Assembly (NCBI GenBank): GCA_903900705.1
Contig: CAIUOG010000064.1
Location: forward strand, 1 to 64,000
Length of the DNA: 64,000 bases
Origin: an uncultured Acidobacteriia bacterium
GTDB taxonomy: Bacteria; Acidobacteriota; Terriglobia; Bryobacterales; Bryobacteraceae
Direction of reading: 5' to 3'
Shown: positions 6,960-56,451 of the stretch, in pieces
How positions within the stretch are numbered: position 1 is the stretch's first letter
Layout of the letters: the number at the start of each line of letters is the position of its first letter
Position numbers and translations under genes: made by a program
Notes under the pieces: model-generated
What the model was told of the DNA's origin: nothing
What the model saw: only the letters and a program-made list of their open reading frames with translations
The model's database searches: none

Positions 6960-9900
6960 TTAGAAGGACAATCGAAGATTCGCTTCGATTCTCCGGTTAC
7001 CGGCCGCCGAACCGCCGCCACCGAAGCCGCCACCACCGCCGTTCGCGATGTTCGTGGACTGGCCGAAGAACGTCGAGGTCAGATTGCCGTTGGGCGCACC
7101 GAGGTTCACGTGGTTCAGAGCGTTGCGGGCATTCAGGGAGAGCGTCAGGCTGTACTTCTTGCCGCTGGCTCCGCCGCCGCCCATACCGCCGCGACCGCCA
7201 CCCATGCCGCCGGCGAAACCGCCACCGCCGCCACGACCGCCACCGCCGCCACCACCACGGGGGCCACCACCGCCGCCGCCCATACCGCCACGACCGCCGC
7301 CGTCAGGACCGCCCGGACCACCATCGGCGCCGGGAGGCAGGCCATTGGGAGATGCCTTTTCACCCCAGCCCCAGGTGCGGCTGACGCGAAGGTTCACCGT
7401 GAAATTGCCCGGTCCCTCACCGTAATTGACAGGGATCAGGGTCGCGCCGGCCGGAGGATTCAGATCGAAAGTGCCCCAGGGGGTGACCCGGGTTTTCGTT
7501 GAAGTGCTGGTGGCAAGCGCCGGTCGCAGGTTGAAGATGCCGTCGCCATTGTACTGGCCACCGGTGGTGATGTTGAAGGGTCCGCCCGAAGCGATTGTGA
7601 CGAACGGAGAGGCGCTGATCGCATACGGCAGCGTGATCGAACCGCCCACAAAACCGCGATGGCGGGTGTCGAACTGTGCACGGCCCCAGTCGAGCCGCGT
7701 ATTGTACTGATCCATCGGCAGGCCGTTCGCGTTGCTGTGAGCAAAGCCCAGCGCGTAGTAGCCTTGCAGGGAGAACCGGCGGTTAAACCGCGTGTTCATG
7801 TTGACGATTGCCTGCGTCTGCTTATAGATGCCCGTCGTTTCGTACTGATAAATCGGGCCAAGGCTCGGATAGGGGAGCTGACCTTTCGGATATGCGACCG
7901 TACCGAAAGTGCCTTCAAGCGGCGCGTTTACGTCGCGGGTGCGAAGCGTGTGGACGCCGCGCGAGTTCACCAGGTTGACGGAGAGCGAAGTCCGGGCCGG
8001 GAGCGCGCGTTCCACGCTGATGGCGGACTGCATCATGTAAGGTGCCCGCACCGCGGGGTCTACACGATACAGAATGTTCTGCTGCACAACACTGGCCGTC
8101 AGCACGGAGGGCGGCGCCACGTTCGGGTAGAACGTCAGCGGCACATTGGTGGAGGTCAGCTGATAGCTCTGCTGCAGTGTTCCGTTAAACCGCAGGGCCT
8201 GCAGTGAGTTGCTTTCGTCAAAGCGGTCATAGAACATGCCCCAACCGGTTCGAATCACGGTCTTGGAGGTGGCGCCCTTTTTCCCCGCGCCGGGCGCCCA
8301 TGCGAGGGCGATACGAGGGGCCACGTCGTGCTTGTCGGAGATGTTGGTCTGTGCTTCCCAGCGGAGACCGGTACTGATCGTCAGGTTTGGCCGGAATCTC
8401 CAGTCGTCCTGCACGAACATGCCGATGTCGAACTGGCTGATTTTGGCGAGCGGCGTGCCGGCCGTCTGGGTGTACTGCGTCGGGCCGCAGCCCTGGGCCA
8501 CAATCGTCGCGATCGGAACTCCCTGTGACAGTTCCAGTTGCGTCTGCTTGTACAGATCCAGTGAAGTGGGGTTCGTATAGCCGGCGAGGCAGGCCGGAGT
8601 TCCCTGCGCCGCGTTCAGGCTGAACGAGTACGAGCCGTTGTAGTTGGAGGTTGAGTAGCTGGTGACCTGACCTTCACGGAAACGGGCGCCGGCCTTGATG
8701 GCATGCGCGCCCTGCGACATGGTCACAACTTCGTGCAGTTCATACGCCTTGTTCCAGTTGTAGTTGGAAACGAACGGCGAGCCGCCGGAGTTGAAAGAAC
8801 CGGAGACGTCGAGACCCGGGATGGAGGGGTCGCCAAACGCGCTCTGGTTGGTGTGCTGGTCGCGGAACTGGAAGCGGGTTTCCACCACGGCTTTGGTGCC
8901 CACGATCATGGTTTCGGTTGCCTGCACCTGATTGGTTTTGCCGAACGACTTGGTGGCCTGCGACGGCAGCGCAAAGTTGCCCACGCCGTTGACATTGCTC
9001 GAATCGGAGTGCTCGTAGCGCAAGACCAGGGTGTTGGTCGCGTTGATCTGATAATCGAGGCGCGGGTTGATTCTCCAGACCCGGTTCGGCGTCGCGAAAG
9101 CGTTCACATAGGGAACTTCCGCGAAGCTGCTGTTCAGGACGGTGGCGTTGATCAGGTTATTTTCGTTGATCTGACGCTTGTTGGCGTCCAGGAAGAACGA
9201 CATCTTCTTCTTCATCAGCGGGCCGCCCACGTTGAACGAGAACATTTTCGTGCTGTAACCGGGAGGCGTGCCGGTCACAAACGGGTTGCGGGTATCCAGA
9301 ACCCGGTCGCCGTAGTTGAACGATGCGCTGCCATGGTAGGCGTCCGTACCCGGCTTGGTGAGGATTTCAATGCGTCCAAAACCCGGGCGGTCAAACTCGG
9401 ACGAGAAGGGGTTGGAGTTGATGCGGATTTCGCGGATCGAACTTTTCGGGGGCAACTGGCCGCCACTGAAGCCGTCGACAAAGAACTGCGCGCCGTTCGG
9501 ACCCGCTGACGGACCCGCCATCGCCTGCAGGTCGGCCTGCAGATCGTCCGGATCGTCCGGAAGCTGTTCGAGGTCTTCGTTTTTCAGTACAAGAGCGCCG
9601 ACGTTCTGGGAGGGATCTGTGTTCACCTGTCCGGCTGCCTGGTCGCTGACCTGCACTTCCTGCGCTTCGGCTGCAATCTGCAGCGCGATGTCGAGCGGTG
9701 TAACCTGCCCGGCGGAGACCGCCAGACCCTGCTGATTGAAGGTCACAAAACCTTTGGCGTCGGCCCGGACTACGTAGGTTCCGGGAGGTAACGTGGCGGT
9801 GAATTTTCCGGTACCGTCGGACTTCACGCTGCGTGTGACGCCGTTACCACTGATCTGAATCGTTGCGTTGGGAATCAGCGCGGCGGAAGGATCCGTAACC

Positions 9901-53651: not shown

Positions 53652-54689
53652 GTGAGTTTCCCCGCGCAATTCAACATCGGAAACGTCACGATCGCGCCCG
53701 CGACTGTTCTCGCGCCCATGGCCGGCGTGACGGACACCGTTTTTCGCCGCTTTATCCGTAATCTGGGTGGCTGTGGTCTGATCATGACCGAGTTCACCAG
53801 TTCCCATGGCGTCAGCGCCCATCTGCGCGCCGAGGGCAAGGTGGCGAAGAAGCCCAATCGCACGTTGGCTCGCTACCTCGCTTTCGATCCGTCCGAACAC
53901 CCCATTTCCGCTCAGCTCTTTGGCGCGGACCCGGAGATTATGGCCGATGCCGCGCGCGTCTGCCAGGATCTTGGCTTCGATATTCTCGACATCAATTTCG
54001 GCTGTCCGGTGAACAAGGTTGTCAAATGCAATGGCGGTTCCGGCTTGCTGCGCGACCTGCCGCTGGTTGAAACGCTGCTGCGAACCGTCCGCAAGGCCAT
54101 CACGATTCCGTTCACCTGCAAGTTCCGCGCCGGCTGGAGCGACCAGGAACTCGTGATGGTGGAGATGGCAAAGCTCGCCGAAGACTGCGGTTTGCAGGCC
54201 ATCGCGCTGCATCCGCGGACGCGGGAGCAGGGCTATAGCGGCAAAGCCGACTGGAACCGTATTGCGGCCGTGAAGGACGCGGTGAAGATTCCGGTGATTG
54301 GCAATGGCGACATTATCACGCCACAGGATGCGGTCAAGATGATTGAACTGACGAAGTGCGATGCGGTGATGGTGGGGCGCACAGCGTCGTCAAATCCCTG
54401 GATTTTCCGGCAGATTGAGCAGTATCTTGCTACTGGCCGTTACGATGAACCGGCGCATCAGGACCGCTATCACATGATGCGGACGTATTACGAGATGCTG
54501 CTGGCCCGCAGTGAAGACGATTCCATCGGCAAAATGAAGCAGTTTGCGACTTACTTCACGCACGGAATCCGGGGCGGCGCGCCCCTGCGCGTCTCGATCT
54601 ATCGCGCGAAAGAACCAAACGAGATTCTCGATCTGGTGGACAATTTCTTTGCCGAGCCGGAGCCGGAACCCGAACTCACCACCGCCTGA
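53652..54689 (+). CDS. dusB: tRNA-dihydrouridine synthase B
   Basis: A 345-residue flavin enzyme that reduces uridines in the tRNA D-loop. It contains VLAPMAGVTDTVFRRF, the FMN-binding barrel, DINFGCPVNKVVKCNGGS with the catalytic cysteine, HPRTREQGYSGKADW and VIGNGDIITPQDA. The C-terminal helical domain ends near AKEPNEILDLVDNF. GTG start. The peptide cluster begins 72 bp downstream on the same strand and might receive read-through transcription. Confidence 0.93.
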   Translation: MSFPAQFNIGNVTIAPATVLAPMAGVTDTVFRRFIRNLGGCGLIMTEFTSSHGVSAHLRAEGKVAKKPNRTLARYLAFDPSEHPISAQLFGADPEIMADAARVCQDLGFDILDINFGCPVNKVVKCNGGSGLLRDLPLVETLLRTVRKAITIPFTCKFRAGWSDQELVMVEMAKLAEDCGLQAIALHPRTREQGYSGKADWNRIAAVKDAVKIPVIGNGDIITPQDAVKMIELTKCDAVMVGRTASSNPWIFRQIEQYLATGRYDEPAHQDRYHMMRTYYEMLLARSEDDSIGKMKQFATYFTHGIRGGAPLRVSIYRAKEPNEILDLVDNFFAEPEPEPELTTA

Positions 54690-54761
54690 CATTTCCCGTA
54701 AAAATTCCGGATGAGTATATTTCCGCCCCGTTTTCGTTCATACGGGTGAGGAAGCATTTTC

Positions 54762-54902
54762 ATGAGCGAAGAGCGAATCCGGGTAACCGATCAGGAAGGT
54801 GGAAACCCACTGGAACTGACGGAAGCGGAGCTGGATATCATCTCCGGCGGCGTCCTGGAGCAGTTGCACAAAGGGTTTAACGAGGAACAGGAGCAGAAAT
54901 GA
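54762..54902 (+). CDS. Putative RiPP precursor peptide 1, double-glycine leader
   Basis: A 46-residue peptide with a GAGG ribosome-binding site. It begins MSEERIRV and has the leader-type segment LELTEAELDIISGG, matching the double-glycine leader pattern (LTxxELxxIxGG) used by peptide-cleaving exporters. After GG there are 16 residues, VLEQLHKGFNEEQEQK. The same MSEERI start is present in the next two peptides. The stop overlaps the ATG of peptide 2 (ATGA). A precursor role is inferred from leader, repetition and the adjacent ATP-grasp gene. Confidence 0.75.
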   Translation: MSEERIRVTDQEGGNPLELTEAELDIISGGVLEQLHKGFNEEQEQK

Positions 54903-55015
54903 GCGAAGAAAGAATCGGTACGGAAGAAGAAGTGCGTGACGAAGTGGTTCTGACCCCGGAAGAGACCGAGCAGATCACCGGCGGCGTTGCCAGTAAAGAA
55001 GAGGCAAGGAAGTAA
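54899..55015 (+). CDS. Putative RiPP precursor peptide 2, double-glycine leader
   Basis: A 38-residue peptide: MSEERIGTEEEVRDEVV, then LTPEETEQITGG, then a nine-residue tail VASKEEARK. The AGGAG ribosome-binding site lies inside peptide 1. The tail keeps an x-[KN]-E-E pattern also seen in tails 1 (FNEEQ) and 3 (HNEEM). It contains Ser, Lys and Glu, which could form ester or amide cross-links. Confidence 0.75.
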   Translation: MSEERIGTEEEVRDEVVLTPEETEQITGGVASKEEARK

Positions 55016-55058
55016 CACTCACCCGCAGGCGCAGGTTCAGCGAAAAAGGAGTTGCCAA

Positions 55059-55187
55059 ATGAGCGAAGAAAGAATCAACACCAAAGACAACGAAGTACGT
55101 GAAGAAGTGGTTCTGACCCCGGAAGAGACCGAACAGATCGCCGGCGGCACCACGCACAACGAAGAGATGACCAAGCGCACGAACTAA
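55059..55187 (+). CDS. Putative RiPP precursor peptide 3, double-glycine leader
   Basis: A 42-residue peptide with an AAGGAG site eight bases upstream. The leader EVREEVVLTPEETEQIAGG is nearly identical to that of peptide 2 (53 of 57 bases in this stretch), while the 12-residue tail TTHNEEMTKRTN is unrelated apart from NEE. The stop overlaps the ligase start (TAATG), tying the peptide to the ATP-grasp enzyme. Confidence 0.78.
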   Translation: MSEERINTKDNEVREEVVLTPEETEQIAGGTTHNEEMTKRTN

Positions 55188-56101
55188 TGAAATTCTGTCT
55201 GGTTTCCGAGCAGAGCGTGCCGGAAGAAACCGTCCGCCTGCTTCGGGAGGCCTGCGCCCGCCGCAGTATTCCTTTTGAGCTGGTGACCGGTAAGACCTTC
55301 GAGTTCAATCCGGATCAGCGGCTGCGGGCGGGGGACATGCTTTACCGGGCGGCCGTGTCTATGGCGGCGACGCGCGCTGAGCAGTTTCTGGCTGCTCCGG
55401 GCGTCGCCACGTTTTACGCGCGCGAAGACCTGCTGTACTTCGCGGTGAATTCGCAGACGCTGTTGGTGCAGTCGGCGGGAGTTGCCACGCCCGCGACGGT
55501 GTATCTGGGCTCGGCCGATTCCTCGATGCTGCGGCGGCAGGTGGAGCGACTGGGCGGATTCCCGGTGGTGGTGAAGGTGCTCGGGCGGTCGTCGGGAGTC
55601 GGCGTGATGCTCGCCGAGTCGATGCTTTCGCTGAAGCCGATGGTCGATTTCGTGCTGGCGCAGGGACACAATCCGTTGCTGTGCCAGTTTATCGCCGATG
55701 CCCTTCACTGGCGCGTCATCGTGTTGGGCGACAGGGCGATTGCCTCGTACCGGAATAAACGGGTTCCGGATGATTTCCGCAGTACCGGCAGCAGCAGCCG
55801 TGAAGACTTCGACGCCGTTCCGCCGTCCGCCGTGGTCGACGCCGCGATTCGCGCCACGCGGGCAAGCGGACTCGAATTTGCCGGTGTGGACGTGCTGGAA
55901 GATCCGGCGGGCAATGCGTGGTTTCTGGAAGCAAACTTTCCCACCTACTATCCGCAGGCGCAGTTATACGGAGGCGTGGATATTGCGGGGCAGATGGTGG
56001 ACTACCTGGCGGCGAAGGCGGGCGCTTTGGCGATGAAGAAGGCCTTCGAGCCATCTTCGCCGGAAGCGAGTTCGGTCCAGCCGGAAAACGCAGCGCGGTA
56101 A
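55187..56101 (+). CDS. RimK-like ATP-grasp ligase, candidate peptide-modifying enzyme
   Basis: A 304-residue ATP-grasp protein. Motifs are FPVVVKVLGRSSGVGVML (ATP-binding Lys and Gly-rich loop), LLCQFIADALHWRVIVLGD, GLEFAGVDVLEDPAG and FLEANFPTYYPQ, where Glu and Asn bind magnesium. ATP-grasp enzymes activate carboxylates as acyl-phosphates and form amides or esters; graspetide ligases close Glu/Asp side chains onto Ser, Thr or Lys. The size and translational coupling to the three leader-bearing peptides fit this. The last ~33 codons, after the domain end, overlap the convergent methyltransferase gene by 100 bp. Confidence 0.85.
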   Translation: MKFCLVSEQSVPEETVRLLREACARRSIPFELVTGKTFEFNPDQRLRAGDMLYRAAVSMAATRAEQFLAAPGVATFYAREDLLYFAVNSQTLLVQSAGVATPATVYLGSADSSMLRRQVERLGGFPVVVKVLGRSSGVGVMLAESMLSLKPMVDFVLAQGHNPLLCQFIADALHWRVIVLGDRAIASYRNKRVPDDFRSTGSSSREDFDAVPPSAVVDAAIRATRASGLEFAGVDVLEDPAGNAWFLEANFPTYYPQAQLYGGVDIAGQMVDYLAAKAGALAMKKAFEPSSPEASSVQPENAAR

Positions 56102-56451
56102 TTGGCGAGCGAGGTGGCAAAACGCCCGCTGGTTTTGCCGGCCAGCGCGACCAGGCCCCCGGGTTTGACGCCGCGCGCGATGGCCGGCAACAGATCCTGC
56201 TGCCAGTAGAGCCAGCAGACAATCAGGTCCCAGGCGGCAGGTGTGACCTGCCACGTATGTTGTTCCAGATCCACCTGCACGAAGGTGACGCCGTTCAGTT
56301 GTTGCGGCAGCAGGTCGACCGCGGTCACTTCCCAGCCCCTCTCCGCCAGCCAGAGCGCATGACGGCCTGACCCACACGCGAGATCGAGAGCGCAGCCCGG
56401 CGGCAAGCCACCGGACGACAAATCTTCAAACAGCAGCGTCAGTTCCGTCAT
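56002..56451 (-). CDS. Small class I SAM-dependent methyltransferase
   Basis: A 149-residue methyltransferase with motif I ALDLACGSGRHALWLAERG, the acidic post-I end AVDLLPQQL, motif II AWDLIVCWLYWQQDLLP and KPGGLVALAG. It starts within the end of the mscS gene (ATGA on this strand), so both are one operon. Its 3' end overlaps the ATP-grasp gene by 100 bp. At this length it lacks a substrate-binding cap. The substrate is unknown. Confidence 0.8.
   Translation of the reverse strand: MTELTLLFEDLSSGGLPPGCALDLACGSGRHALWLAERGWEVTAVDLLPQQLNGVTFVQVDLEQHTWQVTPAAWDLIVCWLYWQQDLLPAIARGVKPGGLVALAGKTSGRFATSLANYRAAFSGWTELASGEDGSKAFFIAKAPAFAAR

Follow-up and report, generated by a model that had tools for sequence, protein, structure and literature searches.

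The window, the whole 64,000-nucleotide stretch of DNA that was analysed, contains three small peptide genes and one ligase gene on the forward strand between two host genes. Peptide 1 (54762..54902, + strand, 46 aa) has the core VLEQLHKGFNEEQEQK with two Glu-x-x-x-Lys (ExxxK) motifs, EQLHK and EQEQK. Peptide 2 (54899..55015, + strand, 38 aa) has the core VASKEEARK with one such motif (EEARK), and peptide 3 (55059..55187, + strand, 42 aa) has the core TTHNEEMTKRTN, also with one (EEMTK). All three were assigned as GG-leader peptides from their ORFs and motifs. The fourth gene (55187..56101, + strand) encodes a RimK-like ATP-grasp ligase of 304 aa (PF08443), the native part of which ends near residue 283. 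As proposed in an earlier, sequence-only reading of this DNA, the ORFs and their translations showed that the three peptides share the start MSEERI, that their leaders end in the form L-T-x-x-E-x-x-x-I-x-G-G (LTEAELDIISGG, LTPEETEQITGG, and LTPEETEQIAGG before GG in peptides 1, 2, and 3, respectively), and that the tails past GG are 16, 9, and 12 residues long. When the window was searched in all six frames, L[ST]..E...[IV].GG, the strict form of this leader end, was found three times; 100 dinucleotide shuffles gave a mean of 0.01.

The leaders of peptides 2 and 3 were identical at 53 of 57 bases, again as read before, and their cores at 13 of the 27 compared base positions; the two peptides are recent paralogues. 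Peptides 1 and 2 overlap by ATGA, and peptide 3 and the ligase by TAATG, as also described previously. Each gene had been credited with its own ribosome-binding site; Shine-Dalgarno-like sequences were recognized by eye for peptides 1–3, but no clear one for the ligase, which seems to be translationally coupled to peptide 3. The cores contain no Cys and few Ser/Thr. The statement that they share only [KN]-E-E has to be corrected, as every core also carries the Glu-x-x-x-Lys motif. Peptide 1 gave weak NCBIfam matches to CTB and class IIb bacteriocin leaders, all under the cut-off, and scans for promoters and terminators yielded nothing above chance.

The upstream flanking gene is a host tRNA-dihydrouridine synthase (dus; 53652..54689, + strand, PF01207), which was present in all 25 genomes searched, including the source genome. 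The downstream flanking gene is a host TehB-like methyltransferase identified by Pfam (56002..56451, − strand), whose 3′ end overlaps the ligase. The inserted cassette occupies approximately 54690..56020, from the dus stop codon to the 3′ end of the methyltransferase. In the closest relative by dus (91% identical; G006, locus L056), dus and the TehB-like methyltransferase are placed tail to tail with a 14-base overlap, with neither peptides nor ligase. Fourteen same-genus dus loci, viewed with flanks of up to 1.5 kb, all lacked the cassette; there, dus and the methyltransferase were directly adjacent in six loci and separated by another gene in one, and dus had other neighbours or a contig end in the remaining seven. 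Most likely, the peptides and the ligase arrived together as one piece of about 1.3 kb. Residues 278–304 of the ligase match the antisense of the methyltransferase end in G006, i.e. the last ~25 ligase codons are an antisense reading of the methyltransferase, and the two ligase relatives described below stop at query residues 283–284. Hence, the ligase tail is most likely borrowed host sequence. The C-terminus of the methyltransferase was also changed, a new one having been gained.

The window ligase scored 56.5 bits on PF08443 (RimK-like ATP-grasp; cut-off 21), and its relatives 46.8 and 48.4 bits. The RimK family profile TIGR00768 (cut-off 143.4) was not reached by the window ligase (71 bits) or by the relatives (74.6 and 65.2 bits), and the score of the window ligase on TIGR04187 was 31.2 of 350 bits. 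No PF21068 match was found in the source genome. With home-made profiles, the window ligase scored 19 bits on graspetide synthetases (10 of 11 PF21068 loci, as one gave no ORF), 67 bits on phage ATP-grasp proteins (five proteins), and 98 bits on RimK-like proteins (29 proteins); the phage and RimK-like sets were chosen for their similarity to the window ligase, so that only the curated scores are independent. Among PDB chains, RimK-type enzymes matched with 58–70 bits, and the graspetide-type chains 9bou and 7drm with 38 and 24 bits, respectively. Two sequence motifs were absent from the window ligase: the N[SA]SPG loop present in 27 of the 29 RimK-like sequences, and NPxG[QE][WF], the motif of the 10-sequence graspetide set. 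Past the catalytic E-x-N it reads FPTYYPQAQ, and D235, E248, and N250 were kept in a seven-sequence alignment. The window ligase and its two relatives share the signature E[AS]NFP[CT]Y[FY], and the conservation among the three extends over their full length, including the N-terminal domain. A structure model was of poor quality (mean pLDDT 42.7), and a search to deepen its alignment found nothing.

On these profile scores, the ligase is RimK-like and lies outside the known graspetide-synthetase clades (MvdC, MvdD, TIGR04187, and PF21068), with the qualification that graspetide ligases are hard to distinguish from RimK without a phylogeny (PMC8939145). The label graspetide-like, which the sequence-only reading had attached to the locus, fits the proposed mode of action but not the enzyme clade, given the low TIGR04187 score, the lack of a PF21068 match, and 19 versus 98 bits on the home-made graspetide and RimK-like profiles.

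Full-length relatives of the ligase were sought in 257 genomes of the order. Two were identified, with 46% and 45% identity, and both were in a single genome (G575) of the same family as the source genome but of another genus. Other searches returned no further members: contigs of one genome per species gave only a 30% RimK-like match (this search used query 8-mers and would miss distant relatives), sixty relatives searched with the ligase gave a best E of 4e-7, a phylum sample of 396 contained, apart from the window, no match exceeding 83 bits or 38% identity, and a class sample of 399 contained no further family members at E 1e-20. The family so far thus comprises three ligases from two genera. 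It was not found in viral contigs, nor in plasmids when the ligase of locus L130 was used as the query at E 1e-12. A phage origin was rejected, as phage ATP-grasp genes match part of the C-terminal half only. One viral contig (L016:946-4262) encodes an ATP-grasp ligase that has the GNAWFLEAN stretch in common with the window ligase; after it come a gamma-glutamylcyclotransferase-like gene (PF06094) and two genes without Pfam match. In the open-licence literature searched by titles and abstract openings, the ligase family was undescribed among the matches listed. GG peptides near other acidobacterial RimK-like genes were also rejected: the pattern matches at the 29 best-ranked loci (flanks of up to 1.5 kb) were scattered and unconvincing, the nearest candidate being a 47-aa minus-strand ORF at L027.

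Each of the two G575 ligases is located tail to tail with one PEP-CTERM protein. These proteins, termed P129 (L129:7508-8158) and P130 (L130:10-786, possibly truncated where the contig begins), matched PEP-CTERM at about the Pfam cut-off (20.7 and 20.6 bits, respectively, versus 20.7), and may share ancestry. Upstream of P129 lies a PF13640 2OG-Fe(II) oxygenase gene (L129:6885-8158 spans both). The N-terminus of P129 has a weak winged-helix look, under the cut-off, and is a possible ligase-docking domain. No convincing GG peptide was found beside the G575 ligases, since the pattern-flagged ORFs were all antisense to other genes and judged spurious; a leader-profile search of G575, run without a positive control, also gave none. 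Conversely, the window contains no PEP-CTERM partner for its ligase. P129 was detected in one of 257 genomes, which is a weak test of co-occurrence because the same search missed P130 in G575.

Ligase homologues consistently lacking such peptides had been named beforehand as evidence against the pairing of ligase and peptides. The two G575 relatives do lack them; yet ExxxK-rich proteins adjoin both. The conserved partner of the ligase is therefore an ExxxK neighbour and not a GG peptide, and the pairing survives in this changed form. At the window locus itself, the coupling of leader/core peptides with an ATP-grasp ligase was borne out by the three paralogues, the gene overlaps, and the joint insertion, and is well supported.

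The ExxxK pattern was then compared with shuffled sequences; the motif had been picked after the sequences were inspected. The middle segment of P130 contained ExxxK 18 times versus 3.2 expected (z 9.5), and that of P129 seven times versus 1.1 expected (z 6.2), where short tandem repeats inflate the z-score and produce other spacings too. The window cores contained four versus 0.8 expected (shuffle p 0.002, for one of eight distances tried). No enrichment was observed for Lys-to-Glu at distance four, nor for Asp-Lys and Gln-Lys pairs at i,i+4. Smaller excesses were detected for Glu-to-Lys at three in P130 (8 versus 3.3, z 3.1; seven of the eight came from Glu-Glu pairs), Lys-to-Glu at five in P129 (4 versus 1.1), Asp-to-Lys at eight in P130 (5 versus 1.5), and Asp-to-Arg at four in P129 (2 versus 0.3), the last three each with z about 3.

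In the P129 and P130 middle segments, Glu preceded 25 of 30 Lys by four residues, compared with a single one of the 17 Arg (Fisher p 2e-7). The background, taken from the remaining 137 ORFs, was 137 of 1880 for Lys and 246 of 4335 for Arg. Counted over whole ORFs, Lys with Glu at −4 made up 18/23 in P130 and 7/12 in P129, the two highest shares of any ORF with seven or more Lys (139 ORFs compared); the next was 3/10. In the window cores, Glu at −4 was observed for four of five Lys, peptide 2 K33 being the core Lys that lacks it, and for one of two Arg. Over the whole window peptides, the corresponding values were 4/6 for Lys and 3/8 for Arg, with no contrast between the two residues. The pair E(i)-K(i+4) is favourable in helices. 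A salt bridge in a helix ought to work with Arg as well, so that the Glu/Lys pairing of the PEP-CTERM proteins points to a reaction involving both residues; a ligase of the ATP-grasp type, coupling carboxylate and amine by way of an acyl phosphate, would fit. The pattern suggests a side-chain ester or amide macrocycle that would be formed by the ATP-grasp ligase, and the earlier proposal of Glu and Lys as linkage partners is plausible.

We propose the following model for the locus. The three GG-leader precursors would be translated together with the RimK-like ligase, which would phosphorylate the side-chain carboxylate of a core Glu. The amine of the Lys four residues on would then attack the acyl phosphate, so that the two side chains are joined in a Glu(i)-Lys(i+4) lactam and 18 Da are lost for every ExxxK (peptide 1 has two, peptides 2 and 3 have one apiece). 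Cleavage after GG would remove the leader, and the short stapled core would leave through the genome's NHLM-type C39 transporter, the genes of which lie on another contig. In the second genus, the same ligase family would act on PEP-CTERM proteins with 7 and 18 ExxxK. We infer the substrate role of the peptides and PEP-CTERM proteins, the lactam, the cleavage, and the export from the sequences. As a reading of the window, a RiPP-type operon whose RimK-like ligase makes such lactams and whose cores are exported by the NHLM-type transporter is somewhat favoured. The broader proposal, that these enzymes are undescribed RimK-like staplers forming Glu(i)-Lys(i+4) lactams with a polarity opposite to that of usual graspetides, and fitted to both GG-leader mini-peptides and multi-site PEP-CTERM surface proteins, is put forward tentatively, at slightly less than even chances.

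Among the observations that run counter to a lactam, the ligase is nearer to RimK-like enzymes than to known graspetide synthetases, and Glu before Lys is the reverse of the usual graspetide order. That order typically places the nucleophile N-terminal to the acceptor, and swapping donor and acceptor resulted in no modification by ThfB (PMC12291112). The precursors do have, as graspetide precursors should, a conserved leader and a core with donor and acceptor residues, but the enriched order is Glu then Lys instead of a nucleophile (Ser/Thr/Lys) before Asp/Glu. The system is accordingly not filed as a graspetide, because both enzyme clade and polarity differ, though it would work like a graspetide system.

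Characterized RimK-like enzymes add an amino acid to a carboxylate, and the family's substrates include S6 and LysW. The ligase might likewise attach amino acids (a single one or several, for example Glu) to the peptides, either at a Glu side chain or at the C-terminus, and ExxxK would then serve for recognition only. This is unlikely, though the best placed of the alternatives: the top profile and PDB matches are RimK-family members, and two of the window cores end exactly in ExxxK. However, C-terminal tagging is improbable in the PEP-CTERM proteins, where ExxxK lies within the chain, in 7 and 18 copies, and the Lys preference (25/30 Lys versus 1/17 Arg) would be unexplained unless Lys reacts; the RimK-type N[SA]SPG loop is also missing.

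Alternatively, ExxxK could reflect helix-stabilizing salt bridges or low complexity, with the ligase and peptides as chance or loose neighbours. The helix-favourable spacing, the E-, K-, and A-rich segments, the tandem repeats of P129, and Glu at −4 of three of the eight Arg in the window peptides are all compatible with this explanation. It is nevertheless improbable, as Arg should serve equally well, yet has the motif in only 1/17 cases in the PEP-CTERM segments; as i,i+4 pairing of D or Q with K is unenriched, and the shuffles control for composition; and as ExxxK recurs beside this rare ligase in proteins of two unrelated kinds. A plain salt-bridge helix is thus weakened by the Lys/Arg contrast of the PEP-CTERM proteins, the window peptides being too few to show such a contrast. 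That the peptides are unmodified, NHLM-exported bacteriocin- or pheromone-like signals while the ligase acts elsewhere is very improbable, given the TAATG coupling, the joint insertion, and the ExxxK common to the ligase's other neighbours, although other short-tail GG peptides occur unlinked in the genome and one with a 5-residue tail adjoins NHLM exporter genes in G001.

Among known systems, corallotide (graspetide group 15; CorA/CorB/CorC) is the nearest precedent for an ATP-grasp carboxylate-amine link at i,i+4 as proposed here, with the order reversed. In corallotide, CorB forms isopeptides between Lys(i) and Asp(i+4) across five KxxxD repeats, after which the Lys is hydroxylated by a PF13640 oxygenase (PMC13097080). 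What the two systems have in common is an ATP-grasp ligase and a large precursor with repeats of an i,i+4 Lys-carboxylate motif, and a PF13640 2OG oxygenase also lies beside P129 at the locus of one G575 relative. They differ in that KxxxD has Lys first and Asp second, whereas ExxxK has Glu first and Lys second; in that CorB belongs to TIGR04187, whereas the window ligase is RimK-like and far under that cut-off; and in that the carriers here are PEP-CTERM or GG-leader proteins. With microviridins and other graspetides, the window shares an ATP-grasp ligase beside short leader-core precursors, possible Glu/Lys partners, and a GG motif, but its ligase lacks both an MvdD-type pre-ATP-grasp domain and an NPxG[QE][WF]-type motif. 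Compared with the RimK family (S6-glutamate ligase and LysX), it has the PF08443 domain and the best profile and PDB matches in common; in contrast, it falls under the TIGR00768 cut-off, lacks N[SA]SPG, has its own N-terminal domain, and is adjoined by peptides instead of S6 or LysW. The leader ends of the window peptides match motif 2 (ELSDEQLDAVAGG-like) of the NHLP/Nif11 leaders described in Haft 2010 (PMC2887384), and an NHLM set is present in the genome. Unlike those leaders, the window leaders are about 30 aa long and have no nitrile-hydratase or Nif11 domain, and TIGR03793 and TIGR03798 had no match in the three window peptides at E up to 1.

Glu-Lys i,i+4 lactams are staples that are put in by chemical synthesis to lock helices. 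If the proposed reaction is true, the ligase would be a genetically encoded enzyme for this lactam, with minimal substrates of 9–16 residues and natural proteins with up to 18 sites. It would also mean that graspetide-like chemistry exists in a second, independent branch of ATP-grasp enzymes, and that a peptide-modifying enzyme has moved between two settings, export of RiPPs (GG/NHLM) and anchoring at the surface (PEP-CTERM).

A peptidase-transporter elsewhere in the genome had been predicted from the GG leaders, and the sole C39 match of the source genome was indeed an NHLM export system on another contig, where TIGR03794, TIGR03796, and TIGR03797 were all over the cut-off. NHLM transporters co-occur with several graspetide groups (PMC13097080). 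Export of the window peptides by the NHLM system is supported as a candidate route. In the same-genus relative G001, the NHLM genes scored 1028 bits over a cut-off of 853 on TIGR03796 and, for a second ABC gene, 585 of 709 bits on TIGR03797. The GG peptide beside these exporter genes (L108:5200-7065, contig C36) has the 5-residue tail FYVLL, and is followed by a long ORF in which 12 repeats built around L[KR]PDE..xVAGA precede NHNQ-type stretches; interrupted by one stop codon, this ORF looks like a multi-core precursor.

Additional GG peptides were observed in the source genome. A short one with the core FLKLKI (L053:230-1614, contig C33) overlaps a gene for a methyltransferase that carries a PF10119 regulatory domain, and the two are possibly a second peptide-modification pair of the same genome. 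More short, unlinked peptides were located at L052, L054, L101, and L100 (contigs C60, C15, C46, and C23), with the leader ends LTAAETEQVAGG, LTEQETAEISGG, LNTDELEQIAGA, and a weaker LTAAETDELSAAG, respectively; the core of the L054 peptide, PTAVESPAKQPHF, also has ExxxK. In another same-genus relative (G009, contig C225), two GG/GAG peptides with the same leader type lie a few kb apart (L109:4248-4379 and 8762-8941).
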